Shown here piece after piece: positions 8,255-64,000 of a DNA stretch of 64,000 nt. Below the pieces are notes generated by a model. The model made no database searches. It was given only the letters and a program-made list of their open reading frames with translations, and had not been told where the DNA came from. The number at the start of each line of letters is the position of its first letter. The stretch's first letter is position 1. A program made the position numbers and the translations under genes. This stretch comes from Microbacterium croceum (GTDB lineage Bacteria > Actinomycetota > Actinomycetes > Actinomycetales > Microbacteriaceae): assembly GCF_023091245.1 (NCBI RefSeq), contig NZ_JAHWXN010000001.1, positions 1,550,001-1,614,000 on the forward strand. The letters run 5' to 3'.

Positions 8255-8319
8255 GGCTCAAAACCGCATGAACAAGCATTGAAGCGCGTGATGCGGCACG
8301 ATCTCGAAGAGGAGAAGTG

Positions 8320-9615: not shown

Positions 9616-9638
9616 GCCTCCTCCTCCCCGCATGAACC

Positions 9639-9670: not shown

Positions 9671-9694
9671 ACCAACCAAGGAGCCCGAGTTCCC

Positions 9695-10618: not shown

Positions 10619-10620
10619 TC

Positions 10621-11466: not shown

Positions 11467-11513
11467 CAACGTCCCGTCCCGGGCTCCGACCACCACGAAA
11501 CAGGAGAAATCAA

Positions 11514-48527: not shown

Positions 48528-49076
48528 TCAGAGGATCACGATCGCCGACATCGCGACCGTGGACGCCGCCATGGTGGCGTGGTGCAGCCGGTGCACCCAG
48601 GAGCGTTCCGTGCGTAGCGCGATCGCACCCAGGAGGATGGCGCCCAGGCCGAATGCGCCGGCCATCAGCTGCGGCATCATCGCGCCCCCGCCGTGCACGT
48701 GCGCGTCCGGCGGGGGAACGGCGTCCGGCGCGGTCACCGCGTCCGGGGTCATCGTCGTCATGAGGAGGATCAGCGCAGCCGTGGAGACGAGCCCGAGGGC
48801 GAGGTGACCGGTCAGCGCCGCCGATTCGGCACCCGCGGGAGCCCGGCTCGCGCGTGGGGAGCGGCAGCGTGCGGCGAGAGCGAGGGCGGCGGGGAGCATC
48901 ACGGCGAACCACACGATCGGTGGCAGCAGTGCGAGCGTCATCGCATCGGCCATGCCGATGACCATGAGCGCGGCGGCGGCGATCTCGGCATGACCGACAC
49001 CGCGTCGCATGAGCGCGAGCGATCCCACACCGACCAGCGCCGCCGCCAGCGCGAAGACGTGCAGGAGGTCGCTCAC
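48528..49076 (-). CDS. Small membrane protein, DUF5134-like
   Basis: A 182-residue protein with five predicted helices. It contains a short proline/histidine loop (DAVPPPDAHVHGGG) and a methionine-rich border (MMTTMTPD) that might touch metal. I place it tentatively near DUF5134-type actinobacterial membrane proteins; no function is known. It is the last gene of the amine-oxidase operon, overlapping the C45 gene by 4 nt, so it is at least co-translated. Copper handling for the amine oxidase is a speculative option. Confidence 0.7.
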   Translation of the reverse strand: MSDLLHVFALAAALVGVGSLALMRRGVGHAEIAAAALMVIGMADAMTLALLPPIVWFAVMLPAALALAARCRSPRASRAPAGAESAALTGHLALGLVSTAALILLMTTMTPDAVTAPDAVPPPDAHVHGGGAMMPQLMAGAFGLGAILLGAIALRTERSWVHRLHHATMAASTVAMSAIVIL

Positions 49077-50173
49077 CGTGACGACGCGGTCGGTGCGTCG
49101 TCGCGGACCGACACCCGACGCCAGGCGGCGGCGGACACATCGGCCGGCGCCGCCGCCGCGAACGCGATCGCCCCCTCTGCGACATCCAGTGCGATCGTGA
49201 GCTTCGTCTCCCAGCGCAGGTGCTCCGGCTGGTCGGCCCGCGCGCGCACCGAGATCGGCGCATCGGGGATCGCCCCGAAGGCGAGCGCTCGCTCCCGATC
49301 GTCGACGATGGCCGCGAGATCAGCCGCATCGGTCAGGCACTGGTAGCGGGGCACGCTCGTGGTCTCGTACGGCGAGTACTCGCCCGCGGCGAGCTCGGCA
49401 TCGAGGAAGTGGTTCGTGTGCGCCAGGGTCTGTCCGCGCGGGGCGGGGAGCACCGCGACGCCGGCCGGGGAGACCTCCACGGCCGCCGCCGAGGGCGTCC
49501 GTCCGTCGAACGCGACGACCGTGAGCACGCTCGACGCGGCGAGGGGGACGGAGCGGGCCAGCTCGACGGCCTCGGCGAGCGTGCTCGCGCGGTCGAGGAT
49601 CATCCGGGCGAGCACATGTACCGGCACCCCGGGCTGCGACCCGTCCGACCGGTGATGGAGGATGTTGAAGTGCACACCGACGCCGCGGTCGTTCACACCG
49701 ATCTTGGCCGGTTGGCCGAACTCGCAGAACGTCACGACGCGCGCCCCGGAGGCCGACCGCAGTCGCCGCACCACGGTCTCGTTCGAGAGCGTCTCGTGCC
49801 AGTCCCAGGTCTGCAGCGTGCGGGGCGGCGTCGCATCGTCGGGCACGTGCACGACGGTCGAGCACTCCATCGACGGGGTCATCCGCGCGAGGATCTCGGT
49901 GCGTGCCGTGAGCAGATGCACATCGATGAGCGGCAACCCGCTCCCTTCGGCGATGCCGGCGAACTCCGCGGCGATCTCGGGGGCGGCGGACTCGGTGGCC
50001 GCGCGGCAGTCCTCCGCGACCGCCCTGGCGCTGTCGGCGCTCACGCCGGACTGCGCGAACAGCCGCAGGTACGAGTCCCGTGCACCGCGCAGCTGGGGCG
50101 ACCACTGTGCGCCGAACCGGACGCCCTCGTCGTGCGGAGCATCCGCATCAGAGAACCACTCGTGCACGATCAT
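49073..50173 (-). CDS. C45 family autoproteolytic acyltransferase/hydrolase
   Basis: A 366-residue Ntn-type protein related to acyl-CoA:6-aminopenicillanate acyltransferase. Precursors cut themselves to expose an N-terminal cysteine; here Cys104 in the context SMECSTVV is the predicted nucleophile. Later family segments include TWDWHETLSNE and GVNDRGVGVHFNIL. Family members make or break amide bonds of acylated amines, amino acids or peptides. It overlaps both neighbours by 4 nt inside a peptide-uptake and amine-oxidation operon, which suggests hydrolysis of an imported amide. No signal peptide is seen, so it should act in the cytoplasm. Confidence 0.82.
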   Translation of the reverse strand: MIVHEWFSDADAPHDEGVRFGAQWSPQLRGARDSYLRLFAQSGVSADSARAVAEDCRAATESAAPEIAAEFAGIAEGSGLPLIDVHLLTARTEILARMTPSMECSTVVHVPDDATPPRTLQTWDWHETLSNETVVRRLRSASGARVVTFCEFGQPAKIGVNDRGVGVHFNILHHRSDGSQPGVPVHVLARMILDRASTLAEAVELARSVPLAASSVLTVVAFDGRTPSAAAVEVSPAGVAVLPAPRGQTLAHTNHFLDAELAAGEYSPYETTSVPRYQCLTDAADLAAIVDDRERALAFGAIPDAPISVRARADQPEHLRWETKLTIALDVAEGAIAFAAAAPADVSAAAWRRVSVRDDAPTASSR

Positions 50174-50814
50174 TCCCGACCTCCGATGCGCTCGACCAGC
50201 TCAGCGACGTCGCCGTAGGGGCATCCGCGGGCGCGCGAGGCGGCGGCCACCCGCTGCCGCACCTCGTGCGGCTTGTCCTGGCTGACCTTGAACACCGCGC
50301 GCTGCTCGAGGATCTCGAACCGGAACGACACGATGCCTCCGACGATCCGCTCGAAGGTGGGCAGCGAGCTCGTCATGTCCCAGGCCGTCGGTTCGAGCGC
50401 TTCGAGCTCCTCGACCGTGCGCGTCACGACGTGCATCCCGTCGACGGCATCCTCGAGCACCGTGACCCTGGCCGTGAGATGCACGGCCGCGTAGTCCCAG
50501 GTGGGCACGTTCGGGTCGTCGGCGTACGTGGTGGGGGAGACGTAGTCATGAGGACCCGAGAACACCAGGAGCACGACGTCGCCGTCCGAGAGCTGCTGCC
50601 ACTGCGGGTTCTTGCGCGCGATGTGTCCCAGGAGCTCGCCGCCGACGAAGCCGCCGTCCGGGGCCATCCGTTCGATGATGACGGGCGTGTGCGTGACGGT
50701 GGGCGCGCCCTCCGCTCCGCCGCCGTTCGAGACGACCAGGGCGAACGGATGGCGCCGCACGAGTTCGTTCACCTCGTGCTGCGAGGGGGCGAGGTACTTC
50801 TCGAATTCGTACAT
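50170..50814 (-). CDS. PaiB-like FMN-binding protein
   Basis: A 214-residue FMN-binding split-barrel protein of the PaiB family (often called FMN-binding negative transcriptional regulator). It starts MYEFEKYLAPSQHEV and contains VTHTPVIIE, GHIARKNPQWQ, FSGPHDYVSPT and WDYAAVHLTA, all typical. PaiB relatives have been connected with polyamine acetylation and protease control, which is of interest beside an amine oxidase, but many are probably flavin-dependent enzymes or sensors. The ATG at 50814 is used; a longer frame from 50847 runs into the preceding P1 gene. It lies 2 nt after that gene. Confidence 0.87.
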   Translation of the reverse strand: MYEFEKYLAPSQHEVNELVRRHPFALVVSNGGGAEGAPTVTHTPVIIERMAPDGGFVGGELLGHIARKNPQWQQLSDGDVVLLVFSGPHDYVSPTTYADDPNVPTWDYAAVHLTARVTVLEDAVDGMHVVTRTVEELEALEPTAWDMTSSLPTFERIVGGIVSFRFEILEQRAVFKVSQDKPHEVRQRVAAASRARGCPYGDVAELVERIGGRE

Positions 50815-50816
50815 GG

Positions 50817-51836
50817 TCAGCCCGCCGCGCAGAGGATGGCGTCCCACGCGGTCTCACCGGCGAGGGTGGCCACCGCGGTGGAGTTCAGCGACAGTCGGCC
50901 GCGCGAGGTGCCGGGATCCTCGGGCAGCGCGACCTCATCGGTCGTGAGCGCGAACAGGGTGTCGCCGTCGAGCGGGGTATGGAACGGCTGGATGCCGCGG
51001 TGCATCGAGCTGTGCACCTGCAGACCGAACTGCTTCAGCTCGACATCGGACAGCTGCACGTTGGTGATCACGGCGGTGATCGTGGTGTTGCCCGACATCG
51101 AGTCGACCAGTCGCGACTCCCCGATCGCCTCTTCGTAGTCGAGCGCGGGATGCCGGCGCTCGCCGGTGGTCGCATCGAAGTTGCCGCGGATGATCCTGCC
51201 CGCGCGGTCCAGGATCACGCCGTAGGGGTTGAGCACCGTGACCACGAGCACCTTCACGTCGCCGACCTGCCGGAACGCGGCGCCCTGTCCCGTGAATTCG
51301 ATGCGTGCCGGGTCCACCTTGCCGGACGACGCCGAAGCCCCGCCGCCCACGCGTCCGACCTCGATGACGCCTTCGCGCGCGGCGTGGAGTGCCGCCTTGC
51401 CGAGCGTGGTGTCGGGGAAGACCGAGTTGTCGCGCACCGAATAGTCGTAGATGATCGCCCCGGACACGAGCTGGAGCTGGTCGAACCCGGAGCGGTGCTC
51501 AGCGCGTGCGAACAGCGCCTCGGAGACCCCCGCGACGGCGGAGAGCCCGTACACGGAGCCGCCGGCGAGGCAGATCGCGTGGTTGTAGCCGTAGAGTCCG
51601 CTCGCCCCCACCGCGCCGCCGCGGCGGTCGGTGAAGGTCCTGGCCCCGGCGGGGATCGACAGCACCGTCGCCCCGGTCGGCCCCTCGGCATACTCGGCGG
51701 TGCCCAGGAGCACGCCGGGGAAGTCGTATTCGACCTGTCCGCGGTCCGTGCCGTGCACGGGGGTCAGGGCGTAGTCGCCGTTGGAGCGACGGGGACCCGC
51801 GGGGAGGACGGGGGCGAGACGGTGGATGTCGGTCAC
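50817..51836 (-). CDS. P1 family aminopeptidase (DmpA/BapA-like)
   Basis: A 339-residue self-processing peptidase. The signature is complete: GGSVYGLSAVAGVSEAL, GKVDPARIEF, and the cleavage site GNTTITAVITN, where the chain should split between Asn250 and Thr251 to free the catalytic N-terminal residue. FHTPLDGDTLFAL follows as in the family. Known members remove N-terminal residues from L-, D- or beta-peptides and amino acid amides; some, such as BapA and DmpA, take beta-alanyl amides. Its GTG overlaps the stop of the ATPase gene (GTGA). It probably processes what the importer brings in. Confidence 0.88.
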   Translation of the reverse strand: MTDIHRLAPVLPAGPRRSNGDYALTPVHGTDRGQVEYDFPGVLLGTAEYAEGPTGATVLSIPAGARTFTDRRGGAVGASGLYGYNHAICLAGGSVYGLSAVAGVSEALFARAEHRSGFDQLQLVSGAIIYDYSVRDNSVFPDTTLGKAALHAAREGVIEVGRVGGGASASSGKVDPARIEFTGQGAAFRQVGDVKVLVVTVLNPYGVILDRAGRIIRGNFDATTGERRHPALDYEEAIGESRLVDSMSGNTTITAVITNVQLSDVELKQFGLQVHSSMHRGIQPFHTPLDGDTLFALTTDEVALPEDPGTSRGRLSLNSTAVATLAGETAWDAILCAAG

Positions 51837-52618
51837 GATGAGAGCTCCTGGAACAGTTGACGCGAATAGGGATGGCTGGGCAGGTCGTAGAACACCTCGG
51901 CGGGTGCGTGCTCGACGATCTCGCCGGCGCGCATCACCGCCAGGTGATGGGAGATGTAGCGCACGGCGGCGAGATCGTGGGAGATGAACAGGGCCGCGAA
52001 GCCGTGCTCGGCCTGCAGATCCTGGATGAGGTTGAGGATCTGCGCCTGCACCGAGACGTCGAGCGCGCTGACGGCCTCGTCGAACACGATGAACGCCGGA
52101 TGCGTGACGAGGGCGCGGGCGACGCTCACGCGCTGGAGCTGCCCTCCGGAGAGCTGGTGCGGGCGACGGGCGGCGAACGACGATGGCAGTCCGACCCGTT
52201 CGAGCATCGCCACCGCGCGCTCGTCTGCGGCCGAGCTGCGCCGCTCGTGCACGAGCAGCGGCTCCAACACCGACGACAGCACGGTCGAGCGGGGATCGAG
52301 CGCCCACCGGGGATGCTGCAGCACCGCCTGCATCCGGCCGGCGCGAGACCGCAGGCTGCGCGCGAGCGGAGCGCCCTGGAACCGCACGGCGCCGGAATCG
52401 GGACGCTGCAGCCCGAGCACGACGGAACCCGTCGTGGTCTTGCCCGATCCGGACTCGCCGACCAGGCCGAGGGTCTCGCCGGGGGCGACCGCGAACGACA
52501 CATGCGACATGGCCCTGACCTCGCGCCGGTTCGTGCCGATGCCGGACGTGAAGGCGACGCTGACGTCGTCGAGCTCGACGGTGGGTGCCGCGGTCGACGC
52601 GGAGGGAACGGCGCTCAT
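51833..52618 (-). CDS. Peptide-type ABC transporter ATP-binding protein (DppF/OppF-like)
   Basis: A 261-residue ATPase with Walker A GESGSGKTTTG, signature LSGGQLQRVSVARAL, and Walker B FIVFDEAVSALD, in which Ala replaces the usual Pro after the Asp-Glu pair. It is short for DppF, ending soon after HPYSRQLF without the usual C-terminal extension. GGAGGTG 5 nt before the ATG and a 4-nt overlap with the preceding gene show coupling. It forms the ATPase pair with the DppD-like protein. Confidence 0.92.
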   Translation of the reverse strand: MSAVPSASTAAPTVELDDVSVAFTSGIGTNRREVRAMSHVSFAVAPGETLGLVGESGSGKTTTGSVVLGLQRPDSGAVRFQGAPLARSLRSRAGRMQAVLQHPRWALDPRSTVLSSVLEPLLVHERRSSAADERAVAMLERVGLPSSFAARRPHQLSGGQLQRVSVARALVTHPAFIVFDEAVSALDVSVQAQILNLIQDLQAEHGFAALFISHDLAAVRYISHHLAVMRAGEIVEHAPAEVFYDLPSHPYSRQLFQELSS

Positions 52619-53610
52619 GCCGACACCTCCTCTCCGGGGCGCGGCCCCGCGCGGTGATCGGCCTCGACGAGCTCCACCGCACGGATGCAGAGGCTGTGGC
52701 GCGCGCCGAGGGGTTCGGGCCGCACGAGCTCGCACGTGTCGATGCGGTGGGCGCAGCGCGCGGCGAAGGCGCATCCCTGCGATTCGCCGTGCAGCACCGG
52801 CGGCGATCCCGGGATGCTCGACAGCCGCTCGCCACGCTTCGCCCGCGACGGATCGGTCGCCGCGAGTGCCCGTGCGTACGGGTGCACGGGGCTGCCGAGC
52901 ACGGCGGACGCAGGGCCGCGCTCCACGACGCGCCCGGCATACATGACCGCGACCTCGTCGCACCAGCGCGCGACGGCGGGGAGGTCGTGGCTGAGCCAGA
53001 GGATCGTGGTGCCCTGTTCGCGGGCCTGCGCGAACAGCAGCCGCATGACCTCCTCGCGCACCTGGCTGTCGAGCGCCGCCGTGGGCTCGTCGGCGATGAG
53101 GAGCTTCGGGCGCCGGCACATCGCCATGGCGATCGCGACGCGCTGCGCCATGCCTCCCGAGATCTGATGCGGGAACAGCCGCACGACACGGGCGGGGTCG
53201 GTGATCAGCATCGACTCGAGCAGCTCCACCTGGCGGCGGGGCGACCCGTCGTCGCCGACGGCGCGGAGCACGAGCTTCAGCTGGGCGCCGATGCGCATCG
53301 TCGGGTCGAGCGAGCCGATCGGGTCCTGCGCGATGTAGGCGAGGGTGTCGCGGCGGTAGGCGCGGAGCGCGTCGTCGTCGAGGCCGAGCACGTCGATGCC
53401 GTCGACGTCGAGCGCGCCGCGGACGATTCGCGCCGCACGCGGCTGCAGGCGGCCGATGACCGCGGCGAGCGTGGACTTCCCGGAACCGGACTCCCCGACG
53501 ATCGCGACGGAGCTGCCGTCGGCGACGTCGAGATCCACCCCGTCGAGGGCGCGGACCGTGGTGGCGCCCGTGAAATCGAGGGCCAGGTCGCTGATGTGCA
53601 CGGCGGTCAT
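52615..53610 (-). CDS. Peptide-type ABC transporter ATP-binding protein (DppD/OppD-like)
   Basis: A 331-residue ATPase with Walker A GESGSGKSTLA, signature ISGGMAQRVAIAMAM, Walker B LLIADEPTAALD and the C-terminal oligopeptide domain with its cysteine cluster (GCAFAARCAHRIDTC) typical of OppD/DppD, thought to hold an iron-sulphur cluster in some relatives. The start overlaps the preceding permease stop by 4 nt. Confidence 0.93.
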   Translation of the reverse strand: MTAVHISDLALDFTGATTVRALDGVDLDVADGSSVAIVGESGSGKSTLAAVIGRLQPRAARIVRGALDVDGIDVLGLDDDALRAYRRDTLAYIAQDPIGSLDPTMRIGAQLKLVLRAVGDDGSPRRQVELLESMLITDPARVVRLFPHQISGGMAQRVAIAMAMCRRPKLLIADEPTAALDSQVREEVMRLLFAQAREQGTTILWLSHDLPAVARWCDEVAVMYAGRVVERGPASAVLGSPVHPYARALAATDPSRAKRGERLSSIPGSPPVLHGESQGCAFAARCAHRIDTCELVRPEPLGARHSLCIRAVELVEADHRAGPRPGEEVSA

Positions 53611-54491
53611 CGGAGGGACCTCGTCTCTCGCGGTTCGAATCGGTCGCGGAGGCCGTCGCCGATGATGTTGATGCACAGGATCGAGATCACCAGCACGACG
53701 CCGGGGATGATCACGAGCTGCGGGGCCTGGGTCATGTAGAGCATCCCCTGCTGGATCAGGAGTCCGAGGGAGGCCTCCGGCACCTGCACTCCGAAGCCGA
53801 GGAAGCTCAGCCCGCCTTCGACCAGGATCGCGACGGAGAGCGCGTAGCTCGCCTGCACGGCGATGGTGCCCGAGATGTTCGGCAGCAGGCGGCGCGCGAA
53901 GATCACCGGGGTGCGCACGCCGCTGATGCGGGCGGAGATGATGAAGTCGCGCTCGGCCACGCCGCGGGTGGCGATGCGCACGACTCTGGTCATGAGGGGG
54001 ATCGTGATCACGACGATGCTGATGATCGCCGCAGGGCGTCCCGGTCCCAGCAGTGCGGAGACGAGGATCGCCAGCACCAGAGCGGGGAACGCGTAGAGCA
54101 CATCGGCGACGCGCATGACCACCTCGTTCGCCGCGCCGCCGTAATAACCGGCCAGCATGCCGAGCAGGGTGCTGACGACGGCCGAGCACACGACGGCGAC
54201 GATCGAGACCACCAGGGTCGTCGCCGTCCCCTGGAACAGTCGGGGCAGCAGCGAGCGGCCGAGGTTGTCGGTGCCGATCGGCGCGAGCGCGGACGGGCCC
54301 TCCAGGCGCCCGCCGACGGTGGCGCTCGTCGATCCGGTGATGCCGGTGAGCACCGCGATCACCGTCACGATCACGATCACGCCGAGCACGATGATCGCGG
54401 TGCGCAGCACGGCGTCGCTGCGACGCCAGGCGCCGCGCGTGGCCTGGCTCGCCGCACGGACGCGGTAGGTGGCTGTGGGTGCGACGCTCAT
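53607..54491 (-). CDS. Peptide-type ABC transporter permease (DppC-like)
   Basis: A 294-residue permease. After an N-terminal helix (about 31-53) and a periplasmic loop with the segment GPSALAPIGTDNLGRSLLPRLFQGT (in parts; the GTDxLGRD-like motif is the DppC mark) come five helices and the EAA-type loop AERDFIISARISGVR. It pairs with the DppB-like subunit and overlaps it by 4 nt. Confidence 0.93.
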   Translation of the reverse strand: MSVAPTATYRVRAASQATRGAWRRSDAVLRTAIIVLGVIVIVTVIAVLTGITGSTSATVGGRLEGPSALAPIGTDNLGRSLLPRLFQGTATTLVVSIVAVVCSAVVSTLLGMLAGYYGGAANEVVMRVADVLYAFPALVLAILVSALLGPGRPAAIISIVVITIPLMTRVVRIATRGVAERDFIISARISGVRTPVIFARRLLPNISGTIAVQASYALSVAILVEGGLSFLGFGVQVPEASLGLLIQQGMLYMTQAPQLVIIPGVVLVISILCINIIGDGLRDRFEPRETRSLR

Positions 54492-55453
54492 CGGCGGCTC
54501 CCTCCGGTCAGGCGCAGGCGCGGATCCAGCGCGTTGGCGAGGAGGTCGACCAGCAGGCTCGCGACGATGAAGACGATCGCGGCGAGCAGCACGGCGCTCT
54601 GCACGATCGCGTAGTCGCGGCGCCCGAGCGCCGTCTGCAGGTATGACCCCATGCCGGGGATGTCGAACACGAACTCCACGATCACGGTGCCGCCCAGCAG
54701 CACGGCGACCAGTGCGCCGACGATCGTGAGGATCGGTGCGGCGGCGTTGCGCAGCACGTGATGCCGCACGATGAACCAGGGCGTCTCGCCACGCGCCACC
54801 GCCGCCTGCACGTGCGGTTCCACGAGCACGTTCATCACCGCATCCCTCGTGTTGCGGGCGACGACGGCGATGCAGCCGACGGTCAGGACTGCGACGGGGA
54901 GCACGAGGGCGCCGAAGAACCGCCCCGGATCGACGGCGAACGGCGCGAACCGCCCGACCGAGACCCCGAGACCGAGCGTGGAGACCGTGAAGACCACGAC
55001 CCCGGCGAGCAGGAACTCGGGGATGCTGATGCCGAGGGCGCTGATGATGCGTCCGACGGCTCCGGCCGAGCCCTCGGAGCGGAGCGCGGCGAGGAAGCCG
55101 AGCGGGATCCCCACGAGCAGAGTCACCACGATGGTGAGCAGGGCGATCGTCGCCGTGACGGGGAGACGGGCGGCGAACTCCTCCGACACCGACACGTTCG
55201 AGACGAACGAGTAGCCGAGGTCACCGGTGAGGACGCCGAAGAGCCAGTGGAAGTACTGGGCGACCACCGGGTCGTCGAGTCCGGACTCGGCCACCGCCTG
55301 GGCCCGCTGCGCCTCGGTGGCGAGCGGACCCAGGACGAGGTCGATGTAGTCGCCCGGCATGAGACGCACGGACGTGAAGATCAGCACCGAGACGACGAGC
55401 AGCGTCAGCAGTGCGGCGCCGATGCGCCGGAGCGACCACAGAGCGACGGCCAT
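54488..55453 (-). CDS. Peptide-type ABC transporter permease (DppB-like)
   Basis: A 321-residue permease starting with the usual basic helix (LRRIGAALLTLLVVSVLIF), followed by RLMPGD, a periplasmic domain with GDLGYSF, and five further helices with an EAA loop (NVLVEPHVQAAVARGETPW). Dpp/Opp family importers move di-/oligopeptides, nickel, or glutathione-like and amine conjugates. It lies 1 nt after the binding-protein gene. Confidence 0.93.
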   Translation of the reverse strand: MAVALWSLRRIGAALLTLLVVSVLIFTSVRLMPGDYIDLVLGPLATEAQRAQAVAESGLDDPVVAQYFHWLFGVLTGDLGYSFVSNVSVSEEFAARLPVTATIALLTIVVTLLVGIPLGFLAALRSEGSAGAVGRIISALGISIPEFLLAGVVVFTVSTLGLGVSVGRFAPFAVDPGRFFGALVLPVAVLTVGCIAVVARNTRDAVMNVLVEPHVQAAVARGETPWFIVRHHVLRNAAAPILTIVGALVAVLLGGTVIVEFVFDIPGMGSYLQTALGRRDYAIVQSAVLLAAIVFIVASLLVDLLANALDPRLRLTGGSRR

Positions 55454-55454
55454 G

Positions 55455-57065
55455 TCAGCTGGCGCGGAACTGGGTGATGTACCGGAGGAAGTTGCCGTAG
55501 CCCTCGTCGCTGCTCAGCGTCGGGGACAGTGAGGCGGTGTTCCATCCGAGGGTGGAGGGGCGCAGCACCAGCGGGACCATCTCGCTCTGCTCGTCGGCGA
55601 GGGTGCACAGGTTCTCGAACACCGCGGCGCGGTCGGCGCCCGGTGCGGTCGAGTATCCGTCGGCGATGAGTCCGTCGAGCTTGTCGGAGCCCTTCATGAA
55701 GACGGCCGAGAAGCCGGCGACCTCGGGGTTCCACCACGTCGTGACCATAGCCGGGTCCGCATAGCCGGCGAACCAGCTCAGCGCCAGGTCGAAGTCGGCA
55801 GGGCTGCCGTAGACGGCTGCGGAGTAGGTGGCGTAGTCGACCTGCTGGATCTCGACGGTCACGCCGATCTCGGCGAGGTTCTGCTGCATGACCTGCGCGA
55901 TCTGGGCGAGCACCGGCTCGTCGGTGTACACGACCAGGTCCAGTTCGAGACCGCCGATCTCATCGATCACGGCCTTCGCCGCCGCCACGTCGCGTGCGGC
56001 GGAGGGAAGGTCCGCGGCGACGCAGGCGTCGGGGAGTCCGGCCGGGGTGACGCCGGTCGCGGCCGTCGAGCCGCCGAACGCCAGTTCGTTGATCGCATCC
56101 CGATCGATCGCGCTGTTGATCGCGAACCGCACGTCCTGATCCTGCAGCGCCTCATCGCCGGTGAGCGAGTTGATCATCAGATAGTGGAAGTCGGTATTGC
56201 GCTGGCCGACGACCGTCACGTCCTTCGCATTCGCGAGGAGTTCGGCGGAGTCGATCGAGTTCAGCACCGCGAAGTCCGCGGAGCCGTCCCGGAGTGCAGC
56301 GGCCCTGGTGGCCTCATCACCGACGATGTCGATCGTCAGCGTCGAGAACCCGAGGGATGCGGCGTCGGGGTGGTGCTCGTTCGGCTCGAAGGTCCACTCC
56401 TCGTCCTGACGGTGCGCGGTCGCCACGAGCGGGCCGGTGCCGACCATCTCGGTCGTGATGTCGACCTCACCCGATTCGATCTCGGCCATCGGCAGCACGG
56501 CGGCCGGTGTGTTGGCGAGCGCGGCGAGGAAGGGGGCGTAGGGCTCGGAGAGCGTGACGGTGACCTCGAGGTCACCGGTCGCCTCGATCGACGTGATGGG
56601 GCCGAGCTGGCCGGTCCAGGTCGTCGGGGTGTCGAGGAGGCGCTGGAGGCTGCCGACCACGTCGGCCGCCGTCATCGCGCGTCCGTTCGAGAACACGGCG
56701 TCGTCGGCGAGCGTGAAGACGTACTCGGTGTCGCTCGGCGTCTCCCACGAGGTGGCGAGCGAAGGGGCGACGTCGAGGTTCTCGTCGATGGTGGTGAGCG
56801 TCTCGTAGGAGAGCCCCTCCAGCATCCAGGAGCGCGCGGTCGCCGCTCCCTGCGGATCCAGGCCGCTGGCCTCGGCGGTGTCGTAGTCCACCTGGACGAC
56901 GAGCTCGCCGCCGCCGTCGAAGGCGTCGTCGGACACGGCGAGGAAGCCGGGTGCGACCTCGTTCTGGGTGGGTTCGGTATCGGGTGAGGCGCCGGCGGCG
57001 CATCCGGTGAGGGCGAGGACGGCGACGGCGGTGAACGCCACCCCCGCGCGAGCTGCAGAGTGCAT
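55455..57065 (-). CDS. Family 5 ABC transporter substrate-binding lipoprotein
   Basis: A 536-residue binding protein (DppA/OppA family). The signal peptide ends in the lipobox LTGC near residue 20, so it is lipid-anchored outside the membrane. Conserved pieces are GLSYETLTTIDENLDVAPSLATSWE (in parts), YVFTLADDAVFSNGRAMTAADV and the late WFAGYADPAMVTTWW. Its ATG is preferred because GAAGGGAAAC lies just upstream; a frame reaching 57185 is a shadow. It is the second gene of the operon, after the amine oxidase. The ligand cannot be predicted. Confidence 0.92.
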   Translation of the reverse strand: MHSAARAGVAFTAVAVLALTGCAAGASPDTEPTQNEVAPGFLAVSDDAFDGGGELVVQVDYDTAEASGLDPQGAATARSWMLEGLSYETLTTIDENLDVAPSLATSWETPSDTEYVFTLADDAVFSNGRAMTAADVVGSLQRLLDTPTTWTGQLGPITSIEATGDLEVTVTLSEPYAPFLAALANTPAAVLPMAEIESGEVDITTEMVGTGPLVATAHRQDEEWTFEPNEHHPDAASLGFSTLTIDIVGDEATRAAALRDGSADFAVLNSIDSAELLANAKDVTVVGQRNTDFHYLMINSLTGDEALQDQDVRFAINSAIDRDAINELAFGGSTAATGVTPAGLPDACVAADLPSAARDVAAAKAVIDEIGGLELDLVVYTDEPVLAQIAQVMQQNLAEIGVTVEIQQVDYATYSAAVYGSPADFDLALSWFAGYADPAMVTTWWNPEVAGFSAVFMKGSDKLDGLIADGYSTAPGADRAAVFENLCTLADEQSEMVPLVLRPSTLGWNTASLSPTLSSDEGYGNFLRYITQFRAS

Positions 57066-57102
57066 GTCGGTGTTTCCCTTCGGGATGTCGGACGACGGCG
57101 GA

Positions 57103-59130
57103 TCAGCCGTGGTGCGACGACGGGCGGACAGAGAGGTGATGCAGGTGGTGCTCGGTGCGTGCAGCGCCGGCGTCCTCGTGAGCACAGGCGCATGCGGTGG
57201 GGGAGGCCGGGACGTCGAGGGTCGGGTTCCGGTCGAAGAAGTCGTGGGGTTTCAGAGTGAAGCCGCAGGTGTCGACGGGCATGATCGGCCAGTCCTCCGT
57301 GCGGGGGAAGTGCGTGAGGCCGAACGTGTGCCAGAGCACCAGGTCGGCGCCGTCGAGTGAGGCGTCATCGGCCACGAAGGCGGGCAGCCCCTGCTCCGGG
57401 GCGCTCTGGTTGACCACGTCGCCCGCGGGGTAGCGCTCGTCGGGGTCGTATGCGGTGACCCAGAGGTCGGAGGTCGCGAAGCGGGCTCGGGACGCGATCA
57501 CCGATTCGGGCTGCGCGAGGAGCACCGGCTTGCCCTCCGGCGTCAGCACGTAGGAGGTCGGACGGCCGAGGCGGTTCTTCGCGGTCGCACTGCTGATGCG
57601 CCACGTCCGATCGACGGTCGCGTTGGCCCGGCGCCGCCCCTCCTGCTCGCTGCGCAGACGGGTCTTCGTGAAGCCGATCGCGCTACCGTGCAGGTTGTCG
57701 TCGTCGATCGGGAGTGCCCCCACGTCCACCTCGTCGATCACCGCGGGCCCGTCGTCGACCGCCATGTCCAGGCGGGCGCAGAACAGGTGCTGGTGGTACG
57801 GGGCAGCGAGCCCTGGCGCGAGCTCGCTGGCGAACCTGCTGGTGCGCTCGTCATAGGCCGCGGTGAACACGAGCCCCGTCGCCTTCGCCTCGAACTCGAT
57901 CTTGCCGTCGAGGTACAGGTACCAGTAGAACCCGTAGTCGTAGTTGCCGACCGTGACGAAGAACGAGATCACGAGACGCCGTTGGCGCCGGACGTCGCTC
58001 GTGCCGGTGAACTGCTCGGTGTGCTTCCACAGCACGCCTGCATCCTCCTCGTGGATGCAGATCGCGTTCGGGAGCACCTTGACATCGCCACGGGCATCGG
58101 CGATCGGGACGTCGAGATACGTGATGTCGCCGACGCAGTCACAGCCGAGTTCGAGGGAGTTCACGAGTCGGCCGAGCAGGTACTCGCCCGTGTCGAAGTA
58201 GTTCTGCCAGAAGCGCACGGGCCCGGGGTCGCCGTAGGGCACCAGCATCTCGGCGACGGAGGCACGGTGCACGATGGGGCGCACGCGCCCCTCGTCCTCG
58301 AAGCCGATGCCGTGCAGGATGAGCCCCTCGCGCATGTCGTAGCCGATGCGCAGCGACCACTTCTCCCAAGAGATCACGTCACCGTCGAACGAGAAGCTCG
58401 GGCCTTCGGGCTGCTGGATCACGATCGGCTTCTGCGTCGTGCGCTCGGGGCCGAACGTGCCGGGCACATGGTAGTCGCCGGTCTCCTGCGGGATCGGCAT
58501 CACGCCGGTGTCGATCACGTCGACGACGGTGCGGCTCGCCAGGTCGACATAGGCGACGAGGCCGTCGATCGGGTGCGCCCACGGCATGGTCTGCGGCGTC
58601 GGCTGGTGGTGGCCGAGCACACGGGCAAGTCGGCGTCCCTGCTCGCCTTCGATCGGGTAGCGGCCCGCGGAGAGGCCGGCCAGGGCGACGGTGCTCGGGT
58701 CGTCGATGCCTCGCGCGGCCAGGGCGGTCGCCCACCGCTCGTCAGCGCCGATCAGCTCACGGATGATCCCGTGCTCCTCCTGCAGCAGCGGCACCTGTCC
58801 GTCGCGATCGGGGTCGATGTCGACGTCTCTCGCGAGCGTTCCGCTGCCGAGATCCACGGAGAGCGCCCGTGCGCGTCCGCTGTCGACGTCGAGGAGCTGC
58901 ACGCGCGCCCGGCGGGGGACGCTGCGACCGGCGGCGACCTCCCGGCGATCGGGCTCGTCGAGTCCGATGTAGGCGATGCGGTGTGCATCGTCGAGGGCGC
59001 CGTTCGCCCGGAGGATCTCGGAGACGCGCTGCAGCTCGTCCGCGGAGAGCGTCGCGTACGGCGCACCGGATTCATCGCCGAGGCGGCGCGAGCGCTGGAC
59101 GTGGTCGGACGTGGAACAGCTGCAGTTCAT
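57103..59130 (-). CDS. Copper-containing primary amine oxidase
   Basis: A 675-residue copper/topaquinone amine oxidase that turns primary amines into aldehydes, ammonia and H2O2. The cofactor precursor is Tyr397 in GNYDYG; the catalytic base is Asp313 in YFDTGEYLLG; copper ligands are His446 and His448 (YHQHLF) with the third His in LVLWHTFGLTH. These four positions have the same spacing as in Arthrobacter phenylethylamine oxidase. The end carries the usual HFPRTEDWPIMP. No signal peptide is evident. GGAG is 5 nt before the ATG; an in-frame extension of 324 codons is not real. It opens the ten-gene operon. Confidence 0.95.
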   Translation of the reverse strand: MNCSCSTSDHVQRSRRLGDESGAPYATLSADELQRVSEILRANGALDDAHRIAYIGLDEPDRREVAAGRSVPRRARVQLLDVDSGRARALSVDLGSGTLARDVDIDPDRDGQVPLLQEEHGIIRELIGADERWATALAARGIDDPSTVALAGLSAGRYPIEGEQGRRLARVLGHHQPTPQTMPWAHPIDGLVAYVDLASRTVVDVIDTGVMPIPQETGDYHVPGTFGPERTTQKPIVIQQPEGPSFSFDGDVISWEKWSLRIGYDMREGLILHGIGFEDEGRVRPIVHRASVAEMLVPYGDPGPVRFWQNYFDTGEYLLGRLVNSLELGCDCVGDITYLDVPIADARGDVKVLPNAICIHEEDAGVLWKHTEQFTGTSDVRRQRRLVISFFVTVGNYDYGFYWYLYLDGKIEFEAKATGLVFTAAYDERTSRFASELAPGLAAPYHQHLFCARLDMAVDDGPAVIDEVDVGALPIDDDNLHGSAIGFTKTRLRSEQEGRRRANATVDRTWRISSATAKNRLGRPTSYVLTPEGKPVLLAQPESVIASRARFATSDLWVTAYDPDERYPAGDVVNQSAPEQGLPAFVADDASLDGADLVLWHTFGLTHFPRTEDWPIMPVDTCGFTLKPHDFFDRNPTLDVPASPTACACAHEDAGAARTEHHLHHLSVRPSSHHG

Positions 59131-59151: not shown

Positions 59152-59185
59152 TGCCGGAACGTCTGCGTGCCGGAACGTTCCGGCA
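59152..59185. promoter_or_regulatory. LacI-type operator: perfect palindrome plus half-site
   Basis: TGCCGGAACGTTCCGGCA (59168-59185) is a perfect 18-bp palindrome with the central CG favoured by LacI proteins. The half-site TGCCGGAACGT occurs again at 59152-59162, 16 nt away. The palindrome covers the predicted transcript start of the amine-oxidase operon. Confidence 0.8.
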
Positions 59186-59271: not shown

Positions 59272-60291
59272 ATGCAAGAGCCACGGCGCGCCCGATTGAT
59301 CGATGTCGCTCGGCGCGCAGGTGTCGGCAAGACCACCGCGTCCGACGCGCTCAGCGGGGGCGGACGCGTCTCTCCCGCCACCCGGGAAGCCGTGCTGGCG
59401 GCCGCCGCAGATCTCGGGTACTCCGTGAACACGGCGGCGCGGCACCTCCGTGGCGGGGCCATCGGGACCATCGGGATCGTCCTGCCCGAGGTCGTCTCCC
59501 GCTCGTCGTACTACATGGCGTTCACGTTCGGCATCGTCACCAGCGCCGCCGCGCACGACATCGACGTCACGATCGTCAGCCCCTCGGTCTCGTCCGGCCG
59601 CTCGCGACCGATCCGCGCGGACGGACTCATCATCGGCGACCCGCTCTCCGGCGACGCGGCGCTGCCCGCGCTGATGTCGTCGGGGATCCCGATCGTCACG
59701 CAGGAGCATCTGCCGGATGACATCGCCGGCACGCCGGACGGCGTGCTCTGGTCGTCGCACGAGACGGCCATGCTGCGGCTCTTCGACGAGATCGACGTCA
59801 CCGGAGCCCGCCACCCCGCCCTCCTGGTGGCGCCTGATGCCACCGACTGGTCCCGCCAGCTCGTCTCCGGCTATCGCCAGGGCTGCGCGGCGCGCGACCT
59901 CGACCCGGTGATCGCCCCGATCTCGTTCGAGGCGCCGTGGCACGAGGTGCGCGAGGCGACCGAGAAGCTGCTGCAGACGCATCCGGGGACGGACGTGATC
60001 ATCTGCGGCCCTGACTCGAGCGCGATCGAGGTCGTGGCCGTGCTGGGGCGGATGGGCCGCACGGTCGGCGACGACATCACGGTGGTCTCGTGCGTCGACC
60101 ATCCGTCGCTCCCGTTCCTGACACCGTCGATCACCTCGATCGATCTGCGTCCTCGCGACTCGGGCGTCGCCTGTGCGGAGCTGCTCATCGACCTGCTCGA
60201 CGGACGCGTGGCATCGGGCACGGACGTGGAGTTCCCGATCGACGTGGTGGCGAGGGAGTCCACCGCGCAGCCGCTGCGGGTGCGCCGGTGA
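59272..60291 (+). CDS. LacI family transcriptional regulator
   Basis: A 339-residue repressor. Residues 8-60 are a LacI DNA-binding domain (LIDVARRAGVGKTTASDALSG, RVSPATREAVLAAAADLGYS) and the rest a periplasmic-binding-protein-like effector domain (IGIVLPEV near residue 64; ITVVSCVDHPSLPFL near the end). It is divergent from the amine-oxidase operon, whose promoter carries a LacI-type palindrome, so it is the probable repressor. The effector is unknown. The CoA-transferase gene overlaps its stop by 4 nt and belongs to the same transcript. Confidence 0.9.
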   Translation: MQEPRRARLIDVARRAGVGKTTASDALSGGGRVSPATREAVLAAAADLGYSVNTAARHLRGGAIGTIGIVLPEVVSRSSYYMAFTFGIVTSAAAHDIDVTIVSPSVSSGRSRPIRADGLIIGDPLSGDAALPALMSSGIPIVTQEHLPDDIAGTPDGVLWSSHETAMLRLFDEIDVTGARHPALLVAPDATDWSRQLVSGYRQGCAARDLDPVIAPISFEAPWHEVREATEKLLQTHPGTDVIICGPDSSAIEVVAVLGRMGRTVGDDITVVSCVDHPSLPFLTPSITSIDLRPRDSGVACAELLIDLLDGRVASGTDVEFPIDVVARESTAQPLRVRR

Positions 60292-61439
60292 GCGCGCCGC
60301 TCGACGGCATCGTCGTCGCGGATTTCTCCCGTGTGCTCGCCGGGCCCCTCGCCACGATGACGCTCGCCGACCTCGGCGCCAGGGTGATCAAGGTCGAGCG
60401 GCCGGGAACCGGCGACGACACCCGTGCCTGGGGTCCGCCGTACGCCGCGTCCGGCATCACGACGTACTTCGAGTCCGCCAACCGGGGGAAGGAGTCGGTG
60501 ACGCTGGACCTCACCGACCCTGCCGATGTGGCGCGGGCGCACGAGCTCATCGCCCGCAGCGATGTGGTGATCGAGAACTTCCGTCCCGGCTTGTTCGCCA
60601 AGCTCGGATTCGAGTGGGAGGCGCTCTCCGCCGTCCACCCAAGGCTCGTGTCCGTGTCGGTCAGCGGATTCGGCCTCGGGGCCGGCGCCGAACTGCCGGG
60701 GTACGACTTCGTGGCGCAGGCCGTGGGCGGTCTGATGCACATCACCGGTGACGCCGACGGCGATGCGATGAAGGCCGGCGTCGCGCTGGTCGACGTGCTC
60801 ACCGGCAAGGACGCGGTGATCGGCATCCTCGCCGCCCTGCGGCGACGCGAGCGCACCGGGCGTGGTTCCCGGATCGAGGTCAACCTGCTGTCGAGTCTTC
60901 AGGCGGCCCTGGTGAATCAGGTGTCTGCGCATCTGGGAGCAGGCGCAGAGCCGGGGCGTCTCGGTAATCGCCACCCGTCCATCGCGCCCTACGAGTCGCT
61001 GCGCTGTGCTGATGCGCCCATCGCGGTGGCGTGCGGCAACGATGCCCAGTTCGCCCGGATGACCCGCGAGCTCGGGCGACCGGAACTCGCGGACGACGAT
61101 CGCTTTCTGCGGAACCCGGATCGGGTCGCGCATCGGGATGCCCTGGTCGCCGAGCTCGAGTCCGCTCTCGCGCACGACACCGCCGCGGCCTGGGCGGACC
61201 GGCTGAACCGGATCGGAGTGGCGGCGGGTGTGGTCAACTCGATCGGCGACGGCATCGCTCTGGCCGACCGGCTCGGACTCGAGCCCGTGTGGGAGGCCGT
61301 GGGCGTCGACGGGCGCCGTTCGCGGCAGATCCGGTCGCCGCTGACCTGGACCCCGGAGATCCCGGTGTCCGCAGCCGCGCCGCCCCTGCTCGGAGAGCAC
61401 GACGCCCAGGTGCGCGCCTGGCTGGACGCGGACGGCTAG
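60288..61439 (+). CDS. CaiB/BaiF family (class III) CoA-transferase
   Basis: A 383-residue CoA-transferase of family III. VVADFSRVLAGPLATMTLADLGARVIKVE at the N-terminus is typical, and the catalytic aspartate should be the one in AGVALVDVLTGKDAVIG, which stands where family members have their nucleophile. It moves CoA between carboxylic acids; the acids here are unknown. It starts at a GTG overlapping the lacI stop, so it is controlled with the regulator. Its stop TAG shares the tetranucleotide CTAG with the stop of the convergent PucR gene. Confidence 0.9.
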   Translation: MSAPLDGIVVADFSRVLAGPLATMTLADLGARVIKVERPGTGDDTRAWGPPYAASGITTYFESANRGKESVTLDLTDPADVARAHELIARSDVVIENFRPGLFAKLGFEWEALSAVHPRLVSVSVSGFGLGAGAELPGYDFVAQAVGGLMHITGDADGDAMKAGVALVDVLTGKDAVIGILAALRRRERTGRGSRIEVNLLSSLQAALVNQVSAHLGAGAEPGRLGNRHPSIAPYESLRCADAPIAVACGNDAQFARMTRELGRPELADDDRFLRNPDRVAHRDALVAELESALAHDTAAAWADRLNRIGVAAGVVNSIGDGIALADRLGLEPVWEAVGVDGRRSRQIRSPLTWTPEIPVSAAAPPLLGEHDAQVRAWLDADG

Positions 61440-62785
61440 AGCGGGAGGTCGCGGAGCGCGATCCAGAGCTCGGCGGCCACGTCCGGATCATCGAGCGAGA
61501 CACCCAGCAGCTTCTCCGCCGCCAGGATGCGCGGACGGATGGTGTTGCGATGCACGCCCAGCTCGCGGGCGGTGCGTTCGGCCTGCTGCCGATGGCGCAG
61601 ATAGGCGGCCACGGTCATACGCAGATCCGGGTCTGTCTCCGCGAGTGCGGTCACCCAGCGGCGGGCCCGCGCGTGCGGGTCGATCCGGAGGCCGTCGGCG
61701 GCGGAGGAGCGGTGCTGCGCGACGATGCGTGCGGCGGTCGCGGCGACGTCCTCCAGGGCGACCTCGCCGCTGAGGATGCCGGAGCCCGCGGTCGGCGCTG
61801 AGCCGGCGGGCCACAGCGTGACGTGCGCTCCCTCGACGTCGACGGCACGCCCGAGAGAGCCGACGGCGGGCTCCGCGCTCGCCAGCACGCGGAGCAGCAT
61901 CGGCAGCTCCACGCCCGATGCGGCGGCCAGCGCCCGGGCGGCGGCGGCCTCCCCGCGGAGGGCGAGCGCGGTGATCCAGTCCTCGGGAGGCGTCGGCCCG
62001 CCCGCCTCTCGGGCGGTCAGCAGGCGCAGGAGTGCCGTGGCGGTGAGCGCGAGCTGACGGTCGGAGCCGCCGAACGGCCTCCCCGCCCCCAGGGCCAGGG
62101 CGCCGCGGGTGCGCTCGCCGTCCGTGACCGCGTGGGCGACAACGGTCGAGCCGTGCGACACGAAGGATGCCGCTTCGACTCCCGAGCGCAGCAGCGACCG
62201 CTCGACATCGGCACGCACGGAGGGCAGCATGCCCTCCAGCGAGCGCGGGTGCAGCAACGCCGGAGCGGTGGTGCGACCGAGTGGCAGCCAGGCCACCCAT
62301 CCGCCGATCGCCTGCGCCATCACCCGCACCACGGCCGCAACAGGGTCGGGTCCGGCTGCGGCCTGCACGAGTCGGGTATGGGCGTGAGCGGTGCGGACCG
62401 CCTCCTCCTGCCCGCCGCGTCCGGCGACCGACCAGAACGCCCGCGAGACGTCGAGGAAGGGCGCCCCGTCCGGAACCTCGAAGATCGGGACCCCCGCAGA
62501 TCGGCAGCGTTCGACCAGAGCAGGCGGTGCGTGCTCCCAGCCCTCGCCGAGTCCGATCCCGATCGCGCCGATGCTCTGCGCGGCGAGGCGGTCGACGTAC
62601 GCGTCCGCCGTCGCGGCGCGCAGCGGGATGCCGGTCGTGAGCAGGAGCTCGCCGCCGTCGAGATAGCGTCCGGGATCTTCGAGCTCCGAGACATGGACGC
62701 CGGTGATGACGCGTGCGGCGTCGAAGGGGGCCAACGGGCGCAGGGAACTGCCGGCCACACTGACGAGCTCTCCGAGGGACACCAT
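61436..62785 (-). CDS. PucR family transcriptional regulator
   Basis: A 449-residue regulator with an N-terminal PucR sensor domain (about residues 1-115; ELEDPGRYLDGGELLLTTG) and a C-terminal PucR helix-turn-helix (LRHRQQAERTARELGVHRNTIRPRI near residue 410). Such proteins control catabolism of purines, amino acids or GABA. It is divergent from the GabT-like aminotransferase gene, its likely target. I start it at the ATG whose codon ends at 62783; a frame reaching 62842 adds 19 residues that cross the candidate operator. Confidence 0.87.
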   Translation of the reverse strand: MVSLGELVSVAGSSLRPLAPFDAARVITGVHVSELEDPGRYLDGGELLLTTGIPLRAATADAYVDRLAAQSIGAIGIGLGEGWEHAPPALVERCRSAGVPIFEVPDGAPFLDVSRAFWSVAGRGGQEEAVRTAHAHTRLVQAAAGPDPVAAVVRVMAQAIGGWVAWLPLGRTTAPALLHPRSLEGMLPSVRADVERSLLRSGVEAASFVSHGSTVVAHAVTDGERTRGALALGAGRPFGGSDRQLALTATALLRLLTAREAGGPTPPEDWITALALRGEAAAARALAAASGVELPMLLRVLASAEPAVGSLGRAVDVEGAHVTLWPAGSAPTAGSGILSGEVALEDVAATAARIVAQHRSSAADGLRIDPHARARRWVTALAETDPDLRMTVAAYLRHRQQAERTARELGVHRNTIRPRILAAEKLLGVSLDDPDVAAELWIALRDLPL

Positions 62786-62793
62786 GCCCTCAT

Positions 62794-62808
62794 TGTGCGT
62801 GATGCACA
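62794..62808. promoter_or_regulatory. Candidate PucR operator
   Basis: TGTGC-N5-GCACA is an exact 5-bp inverted repeat in the 89-nt region between the divergent pucR-type and aminotransferase genes, close to the regulator start. It is short, so it remains tentative. Confidence 0.4.
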
Positions 62809-62861
62809 GTCGTCTCGTAAAGACTGGGCGAAGTGTGCCCATGGACGAATGCGCTTCACCC

Positions 62862-62874: not shown

Positions 62875-64000
62875 ATGACCTCCGTTCCCCACCTGCTCAC
62901 CGAGATCCCCGGGCCGCGATCGCGTGCGCTCCACGCGCAGCGCGGTGCCGCCGTCGCCTCCGGATTCGGCGTCACCCTGCCCGTGTTCATCGCCGGCGCC
63001 GGCGACTCGACCCTCGAAGACGTCGACGGCAATACGCTCATCGACCTCGCATCCGGCATCGCCGTCACCAGCGTCGGCGCGGCCAACCCCCGCGTGCGGC
63101 GAAACGTCACGGCACAGCTCGACCGCTTCACCCACACCTGCTTCATGGTGACCGAGTACGAGGGCTTCGTCCGCGTCGCCGAATGGCTCAACGATCATGT
63201 GCCCGGCGATTTCGAGAAGAAGACCGGCCTGTTCAGCACCGGGGCGGAGGCCGTCGAGAACGCGGTGAAGATCGCTCGCGCCCACTCCGGTCGACCGGGG
63301 ATCCTGGTGATCGACGAGGCGTACCACGGCCGGTCGCTGCTGACCATGGCCATGACGGCGAAGGAGCACCCGTACAAGACCTCGTTCGGCCCGTTCCCCG
63401 GCGACGTCGTGCGCGGGCCCAACGCGAATCCCCTCCGCGGCGCCGGAGCAGACGAGGCCCTCGCCGAGATCGAGCGCCTTATCCTCGCGCACGGCGCCGA
63501 GCACTTCGCGGCCCTCGTCGTCGAACCGATCCAGGGCGAGGGCGGGTTCATCGTCCCCGCCGAGGGCTTCCTCGCAGGTCTCCGTCGCCTCGCAGACGCC
63601 TACGGCATCATCCTGGTCATCGACGAGATCCAGACCGGCCTCGGACGCACGGGACGTCTGTTCGCGAGCGAGCACGACGCGATCGCCGGCGACATCACGC
63701 TGACCGCGAAGGCGCTCGGCGGCGGGCTGCCCCTGAGCGCCGTCACCGGCCGCGCCGACATCATGGATGCCGTACACACGGGCGGCCTCGGCGGTACCTA
63801 CGCGGGCAACCCGCTGGCCTGCGCGGCCGCACTGGCCGTGTTCGAGGTGCTCGAGGAACCGGACCTGCTCCCACGCGTCGCCGGCATCGAACAGCGCATC
63901 CGCCGCCACCTCGAACCGCTCCTGATCGAGCTCGACCAGGTCGCAGAGGTCCGGGGTCGCGGGGCGATGATGGCGATCGAGTTCGCCGACCCCGGAACGC
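62875..64000 (+). CDS. gabT: Class III aminotransferase, 4-aminobutyrate transaminase-like (cut by window end)
   Basis: The first 375 residues of a PLP enzyme; the C-terminus lies beyond the window. The pattern VTEYEGFVRVAEWLNDHVPG, FSTGAEAVENAVKIAR, VVEPIQGEGGFIVP and DEIQTGLGRTGRLFA is that of GabT, and the PLP lysine is Lys279 (LTAKALGGGLPLS). It should transfer the amino group of GABA (or beta-alanine or another omega-amino acid) to 2-oxoglutarate. A PucR regulator is divergent. It may handle an omega-amino acid freed by the peptidase/amidase operon 12 kb away. The gene name is the best fit, not a certainty. Confidence 0.87.
   Translation, partial: MTSVPHLLTEIPGPRSRALHAQRGAAVASGFGVTLPVFIAGAGDSTLEDVDGNTLIDLASGIAVTSVGAANPRVRRNVTAQLDRFTHTCFMVTEYEGFVRVAEWLNDHVPGDFEKKTGLFSTGAEAVENAVKIARAHSGRPGILVIDEAYHGRSLLTMAMTAKEHPYKTSFGPFPGDVVRGPNANPLRGAGADEALAEIERLILAHGAEHFAALVVEPIQGEGGFIVPAEGFLAGLRRLADAYGIILVIDEIQTGLGRTGRLFASEHDAIAGDITLTAKALGGGLPLSAVTGRADIMDAVHTGGLGGTYAGNPLACAAALAVFEVLEEPDLLPRVAGIEQRIRRHLEPLLIELDQVAEVRGRGAMMAIEFADPGT

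Follow-up and report, generated by a model that had tools for sequence, protein, structure and literature searches.

A putative catabolic locus for desferrioxamine-type siderophores in Microbacterium croceum and its NylC-type hydrolase

We examined a 64,000-nucleotide stretch of the Microbacterium croceum genome (contig NZ_JAHWXN010000001.1, positions 1,550,001 to 1,614,000; this whole stretch is called the window, and positions are counted from its first letter). Toward its end, a ten-gene operon (48528-59130) and the genes upstream of it form a block that is probably a catabolic locus for desferrioxamine-type hydroxamate polyamide siderophores, used as a source of carbon and nitrogen. Siderophores of this type consist of alternating N-hydroxycadaverine and succinate. 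The block encodes enzymes suited to N-hydroxylamine chemistry, which call for a hydroxylamine, and polyamide hydrolases with a peptide-size importer, which call for an oligomer; taken together with a set of five-carbon diacid enzymes, they point to a desferrioxamine-type siderophore, since siderophores built on N-hydroxycadaverine satisfy all of these demands.

Deferoxamine is a medicine, and its microbial breakdown is of practical interest. The breakdown of desferrioxamines by soil bacteria is already known, and the locus supplies a candidate gene for every step. In the accessible part of one report, bacterial amidases degrade desferrioxamines as a carbon and nitrogen source, in the iron-free form only (PMC11800396); another, in its available text, describes the enzymatic degradation as hydrolysis of amides inside the cell, serving carbon use (PMC12364333). 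In Mesorhizobium loti LU, deferrioxamine B serves as sole carbon source (PMC5805875). The proposed pathway resembles the activities of M. loti LU and Azospirillum irakense in hydrolyzing desferrioxamine amides for carbon, but in the accessible parts of the sources those activities are described without named genes (PMC5805875, PMC12364333). Our literature search, which saw sources in part and had most subscription journals and bioRxiv outside its coverage, found no gene set named for desferrioxamine catabolism.

Gene content, conservation, and operator

Gene content, conservation, operator, family relations, and catalytic residues were computed directly. By open reading frame coordinates, the ten minus-strand genes form a single-strand run, with junctions of 37, 1, -4, -4, -4, -4, 2, -4, and -4 nt from the copper amine oxidase (CuAO) gene downstream; every junction matches an earlier note on this DNA, which had described ten same-strand genes with such overlaps and gaps. 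The families assigned by Pfam and NCBIfam are, in order, copper amine oxidase, SBP_bac_5, two BPD_transp_1, two ABC_tran, Peptidase_S58, FMN_bind_2, and AAT/C45 proenzyme. The operon is real, but it is only part of a larger unit. Upstream of it lies a divergent lacI-caiB pair, which shares one divergent promoter region with the operon, and then pucR; past pucR, genes for an aminotransferase, a glutaryl-CoA dehydrogenase (GcdH), and an aldehyde dehydrogenase (ALDH) follow one another with 4-nt overlaps and extend beyond the window end. The labels of amine oxidase, Dpp-type importer, and C45 protein given in the earlier note stand, while its P1 aminopeptidase is of NylC type and its PaiB-like FMN protein is nearest to NohD and the piperazate synthases. 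Its suggestion of a single pathway that imports an amide-linked amine, cleaves it, and oxidizes the freed amine holds in outline and was incomplete in scope and chemistry: the larger unit and the NohD- and NylC-type proteins suggest a narrower substrate, namely a polyamide of hydroxamate type that contains a five-carbon amine.

The P1 gene (E <= 1e-60) is present in 11 of 149 Microbacterium genomes, and these are exactly the genomes in which CuAO and C45 occur together, at a distance of ~7 kb on the same strand. Taken singly, C45 has a match in 30 of the 149 and CuAO in 73. The order CuAO-DppABCDF-P1-PaiB-C45, with the divergent lacI-caiB pair, is kept in all 11 carriers (the G023 locus lies on an 11.8-kb contig that ends inside C45 and is too short for pucR), so the single-pathway reading withstands the first refutation named for it, a gene order that no relative keeps. 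Among the genus loci, identity is as low as 47% in C45 and 58% in PaiB, and the conservation is therefore not merely recent copying.

A co-occurrence search of actinobacterial genomes, also suggested earlier, found the module, rearranged, in other actinobacterial families. We scanned a species-genome collection with two peptide patterns from an alignment of seven P1 proteins, a non-exhaustive search that yielded 89 relatives, of which 80 loci were retained; locus gene content was scored by tblastn at set cut-offs, with one 5-kb contig (L052) excluded. CuAO, importer, P1, PaiB, C45, LacI, and CaiB are all found in the 13 Microbacterium/Frigoribacterium loci. A further 28 loci are more distant, 27 of them actinobacterial by title and one labeled 'Rhizobiales'; among these we find C45 in 25, LacI in 24, PaiB in 14, CuAO in 13, CaiB in eight, GcdH in eight, and a MOSC protein in six. 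Gene order varies by family (in Prauserella, for example, PaiB-CuAO is divergent from the importer), and the linkage has therefore outlasted rearrangement. Another 38 P1 loci, mostly from Chloroflexota and other metagenome-assembled genomes and 10 of them shorter than 10 kb, showed no match to C45, PaiB, MOSC, CuAO, CaiB, GcdH, or LacI at the cut-offs used. A search of a plasmid collection with P1 returned four records: Nonomuraea gerenzanensis, two Variovorax, and one Sinorhizobium. The N. gerenzanensis locus (L171) holds LacI, CuAO, importer, P1, PaiB, C45, GcdH, ALDH, CaiB, and a GntR regulator.

Between lacI and the CuAO gene lies a perfect 18-bp palindrome, TGCCGGAACGTTCCGGCA (59168-59185), probably a LacI-type operator. 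It is found exactly in all 11 Microbacterium gaps, in all 13 named Microbacterium/Frigoribacterium loci, and in 14 of the 28 distant loci, and in none of the 38 other P1 loci; one further distant locus, L066, has it with one mismatch. The 18 bp occur at a single place in the M. croceum genome, where the 14-bp core has one exact site and three sites with one mismatch. Six of 394 Actinomycetes genomes, including M. croceum, contain the operator, four at the module and two beside a LacI homolog; the site in G327/L164 lies in the same stretch as L079 and is therefore no independent case. One conserved LacI-type operator in a shared promoter region speaks for joint control. The LacI-family regulator itself (59272-60291, plus strand; Peripla_BP_3, LacI) is divergent from the operon and present in all 11 genus loci, and the PucR-family regulator, assigned by family match (61436-62842, minus strand), adjoins CaiB in every genus locus of sufficient length (10 of 11).

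Tandem pairs of the 18-bp operator were also seen beside a LacI homolog at L165:8052-8104 and L166:15722-15776; the stretch covered there contains no P1 module. The L165 pair adjoins a gene that by eye resembles a carbon-nitrogen (nitrilase-type) hydrolase.

The NylC-type hydrolase and N-hydroxylamine chemistry

The seventh gene of the operon, P1 (50817-51836, minus strand), encodes a NylC-type Ntn hydrolase with a predicted self-cleavage site at Asn250-Thr251. NylC is its nearest sequence (428 bits, 62% identity over 319 amino acids), and Asn250-Thr251 aligns with Asn266-Thr267 of NylC; the Asn-Thr site is retained in all 51 P1 copies from 46 loci. We rejected the label of DmpA-type aminopeptidase, since the Pfam S58 family scores 52 bits against 428 for NylC. 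When 90 P1 proteins were placed in a tree, midpoint-rooted for drawing only, NylC fell inside a 52-row clade with 51 module-locus proteins (support 100/100) and, within the same tree, grouped in a 19-row subset with 18 of them (support 98/92). This nesting among module hydrolases suggests that the nylonase NylC may be derived from the module lineage. NylC, a 6-aminohexanoate-oligomer endohydrolase (PDB 5xyg, 3axg), thus resembles P1 in sequence, in its cleavage site, and in its place in the tree; it differs in being known from nylon-oligomer breakdown, whereas the module P1 adjoins an importer, a NohD-type protein, a C45 hydrolase, and a five-carbon route.

A desferrioxamine without its N-OH groups would be a nylon-5,4. 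By their PDB names, solved relatives attack nylon-6 and nylon-6,6. We set aside nylon oligomers as the natural substrate, because six-carbon units would need neither glutaryl-CoA dehydrogenase nor NohD. The locus suggests what the natural substrate of NylC-type nylonases may be, offers NohD a place in a pathway, and could mark siderophore turnover in soil. No paper that we examined links NylC to siderophores; in their accessible parts, PMC12967654 mentions both without connecting them, and PMC11991193, one of two papers from a second search, likewise makes no connection.

Two P1 genes flank a Dpp-type importer in one annotated cluster on a Variovorax boronicumulans plasmid (L172). This P1-Dpp-P1 cluster, the case in one of the Variovorax plasmid regions, is of a different kind and is a more distant instance of the pairing.

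The next gene (50170-50814, minus strand), annotated FMN_bind_2/PaiB, probably encodes a NohD-type heme N-hydroxylamine dehydratase, judging by its scores, which are 167 bits against NohD, 119-147 against piperazate synthases, and 66 against PaiB. It is thus closer to NohD than to either other family, and we rejected 'PaiB-like FMN repressor' as its best label. NohD is its nearest solved relative; the PDB titles (9oqs-9or1) call it an N-hydroxylamine dehydratase and mention both heme and N-hydroxylated ornithine. The window protein differs from it in being only 49% identical, whereas the PaiB-type proteins of modules L061, L062 (Nonomuraea), and L167 are 82-84% identical to NohD. His64, Asn69, Val103, Thr105, and Lys176 are conserved in all 30 loci with a match, and Ala66 in 27. 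By eye, the positions at which the depositors made variants give a mixed signal: A66 and V103 match the NohD letters at A59 and V96, while the protein differs at R144 and carries the variant letters of D173P and R176V near the C terminus. No paper on NohD was found in the literature covered, and the depositors may have published more.

Out of the 28 distant loci, 14 have the PaiB-type protein, six have the MOSC protein, and none has both (P = 0.008 for exclusion, kinship ignored). The MOSC proteins are YcbX/mARC-like single chains that unite MOSC, FAD, NAD, and 2Fe-2S domains. According to the accessible part of PMC10637980, mARC reduces hydroxylamines and hydroxamic acids, and some bacterial YcbX proteins likewise hold the whole electron chain in a single polypeptide; the proteins seen here belong to sister modules rather than to the window. 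That two unrelated proteins able to handle N-OH groups occupy the same slot is the clearest hint of an N-hydroxylated substrate. CuAO occurs in 13 distant loci, 11 of them with PaiB-type, and in none of the six MOSC loci. Four of these six (L059, L065, L070, and L075) match a fusion of a kinase (APH) with a class III aminotransferase.

Pfam confirms the domains of this fusion in L059, L065, and L060, the last without PaiB-type or MOSC. The single chains of ~1,000 residues lie within the module, at L059:508-3468, L065:477-3527, and L060:11375-14674, in Streptomyces and Acrocarpospora loci. The MOSC reductase gene is apparently split across two frames in Streptomyces L059:12087-13915 and occupies one frame in L065.

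The locus might instead break down amides of cadaverine or 5-aminovalerate that are not hydroxylated (acyl-cadaverines or short polyamides), in which case the PaiB-type protein would be no enzyme but a sensor using heme or flavin. Every gene but PaiB/MOSC fits this alternative, for which the amine oxidase and the five-carbon route would be enough, and eight of the 28 distant loci have neither PaiB-type nor MOSC. Moreover, Bacillus PaiB has the same His, Asn, Thr, and Lys and binds heme but makes no N-N bond, according to the part of PMC13274692 available; these four residues therefore cannot decide NohD identity, although the heme-ligand His and catalytic Thr and Lys are all in place. Two observations favor N-hydroxylated amides all the same: the higher score to NohD, with the close relatives of NohD in three modules, and the substitution of a YcbX/mARC-like protein in six distant loci. 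We consider the non-hydroxylated alternative unlikely.

The five-carbon route and the proposed pathway

The genes upstream of the operon include all four enzyme types of a known route from 5-aminovalerate through glutarate (GabT/DavT, semialdehyde dehydrogenase, CoA-transferase, and GcdH), grouped here beside the operon and, in difference from the known route, tied to amide and N-hydroxylamine chemistry. The caiB gene (60288-61439, plus strand) encodes a family III CoA-transferase, probably of glutarate type, whose best NCBIfam model is succinate--glutarate CoA-transferase (314 bits). A class III aminotransferase of gamma-aminobutyrate (GABA)/5-aminovalerate type (62875-64000, plus strand) is cut at the window end and ends at window-equivalent position 64200; its best solved relative is GABA transaminase (488 bits). 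Outside the window follow GcdH (window-equivalent 64197-65381), whose best solved relatives are glutaryl-CoA dehydrogenases (3swo, 516 bits), and ALDH, assigned by family match (window-equivalent 65378-66826). The order aminotransferase-GcdH-ALDH is the same in all 10 Microbacterium loci examined, the G023 contig stopping earlier. GcdH (E <= 1e-90) is found in all 11 carriers and in 32 of 138 non-carriers (P = 4e-7, again ignoring kinship). Given a five-carbon route, the main product is unlikely to be a four-carbon (putrescine) or six-carbon (nylon-6) unit. None of the 11 carriers has IucA/IucC siderophore synthetases (12 of the 149 Microbacterium genomes do), which makes recycling of an own siderophore of such kind unlikely.

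From these data we infer the substrate, the order of steps, the bond specificity, and repression as follows. The Dpp-type ABC importer would take up the siderophore in its iron-free form, whole or as fragments. Internal amide bonds would be cleaved by the NylC-type hydrolase, and the acyl (perhaps hydroxamate) bonds still left by the C45 hydrolase; the products would be succinate and pieces of N-hydroxycadaverine type. Dehydration of the N-hydroxylamine end by the NohD-type heme enzyme would yield an imine, which would hydrolyze to an aldehyde, and CuAO would convert the free amine end to an aldehyde. Aldehyde dehydrogenase and aminotransferase would then lead to glutarate, which the CoA-transferase would convert to glutaryl-CoA with succinyl-CoA as the donor, and glutaryl-CoA dehydrogenase would yield crotonyl-CoA. 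A LacI-type repressor acting at the one conserved operator would govern the operon and probably caiB too.

The same enzymes could degrade siderophores of N5-hydroxyornithine or N6-hydroxylysine, whether peptidic or aerobactin-like. The importer is of a peptide type that suits peptidic siderophores, and the titles of the NohD structures name N-hydroxylated ornithine rather than N-hydroxycadaverine. NylC relatives, however, cut straight-chain polyamides, as the PDB names indicate; ornithine leads to glutamate semialdehyde with no need for glutaryl-CoA dehydrogenase, and lysine would reach glutaryl-CoA via oxoadipate without a CoA-transferase. Such a substrate seems quite improbable.

Nor is the breakdown likely to serve the release of iron, with a ferric complex imported and cleaved to free the metal rather than used as food. 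The M. croceum genome has no IucA/IucC match and encodes, elsewhere, five PF01497 binding proteins of ferric-siderophore type, so the organism may rely on the siderophores of others. But among the identified locus genes there is no iron-family transporter, ferric reductase, or iron regulator, the LacI and PucR regulators and the full route to glutaryl-CoA indicate feeding, and the bacterial degradation reported in the accessible part of PMC11800396 targets the iron-free form. We regard iron release as a very remote prospect.

Several further results, beside those that favor the alternatives above, weigh against desferrioxamine catabolism. Three enzymes of the five-carbon route score below NCBIfam equivalog cut-offs: the CoA-transferase reaches 314 bits against 750 in its best-scoring model, the aminotransferase 506.0 against 506.65 for TIGR00700 and 586.8 against 639 for PRK06058, and GcdH 186 against 470 for NCBIfam GlutCoADH_Des. 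CaiB and GcdH are missing in 20 of the 28 distant loci within the stretch covered. In a fold search with a model of middling confidence (pLDDT 69), piperazate synthases came first (E = 2e-16), with NohD level (7e-16) and PaiB at 9e-11, so that NohD was not separated. The deferrioxamine B-degrading enzyme of M. loti is serine-peptidase-like, not of Thr or Cys type (PMC5805875). The role assigned to C45 is a guess, and the binding protein is a member of the peptide family. In two genomes the operator adjoins a LacI homolog, with no module in the stretch covered (the G482 contig stops at this site), and a promoter and terminator scan gave no consensus promoter and no terminator. Finally, locus counts and statistics ignore the relatedness of the genomes.

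The broadest form of the proposal, toward which the evidence in our judgment tips only slightly, is that these genes are what desferrioxamine catabolism rests on: a complete import-cleave-dehydrate-oxidize route to glutaryl-CoA, shared by actinobacteria under one conserved operator, in which NohD dehydration and MOSC reduction would be interchangeable for the N-OH group, and from whose hydrolase lineage NylC would stem, the natural substrate behind the nylon enzyme being a siderophore.

Remaining genes of the operon

The first gene (57103-59130, minus strand) encodes a CuAO of 675 amino acids (PF01179, 485 bits) with the TPQ motif GNYDYG at 395, YHQH at 445, LTHFP at 605, and NYFDTG at 310, which establish it by family score and by TPQ and copper-ligand motifs; inspection by eye revealed no obvious signal peptide. 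His607 is kept in all 30 loci in an alignment check of five positions, the other four of which only neighbor catalytic residues, so that His607 alone is a catalytic check. The best solved relative is the Arthrobacter phenylethylamine oxidase (AGAO; 757 bits), which shares the TPQ and copper motifs; AGAO is an aromatic monoamine enzyme, whereas the operon CuAO probably acts on an aliphatic omega-amine. A second copper amine oxidase in the M. croceum genome, outside the window at G000:C1:1730748-1732643, is 47% identical to that of the operon.

The importer, also on the minus strand, comprises a substrate-binding lipoprotein of Dpp/Opp type (55455-57065; 536 amino acids, SBP_bac_5 216 bits) with a lipobox, LTGC, recognized by eye, and, by family match, the permeases DppB-like (54488-55453) and DppC-like (53607-54491) and the ATPases DppD-like (52615-53610) and DppF-like (51833-52618). 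A close solved relative of the lipoprotein was not found, the best scoring 104 bits.

The C45 autoproteolytic amide hydrolase/acyltransferase (49073-50173, minus strand) matches C45_proenzyme with 207 bits against a cut-off of 85, and its nucleophile, Cys104, is kept in all 43 loci with a match. In other Microbacterium genomes (L038, L040, and L041), C45 genes are accompanied by a LacI gene and by another kind of Dpp importer, while P1 and CuAO are absent; these are perhaps related uptake-hydrolysis clusters for another amide. The last gene of the operon (48528-49076, minus strand) encodes a small membrane protein of 182 amino acids with no match in Pfam or NCBIfam; present in seven of the 13 Microbacterium/Frigoribacterium loci, it was rejected as a core part. 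Elsewhere in the window, positions 8001-12000 have a G+C content of 0.63, against ~0.70 in most of the window, and are possibly acquired DNA.

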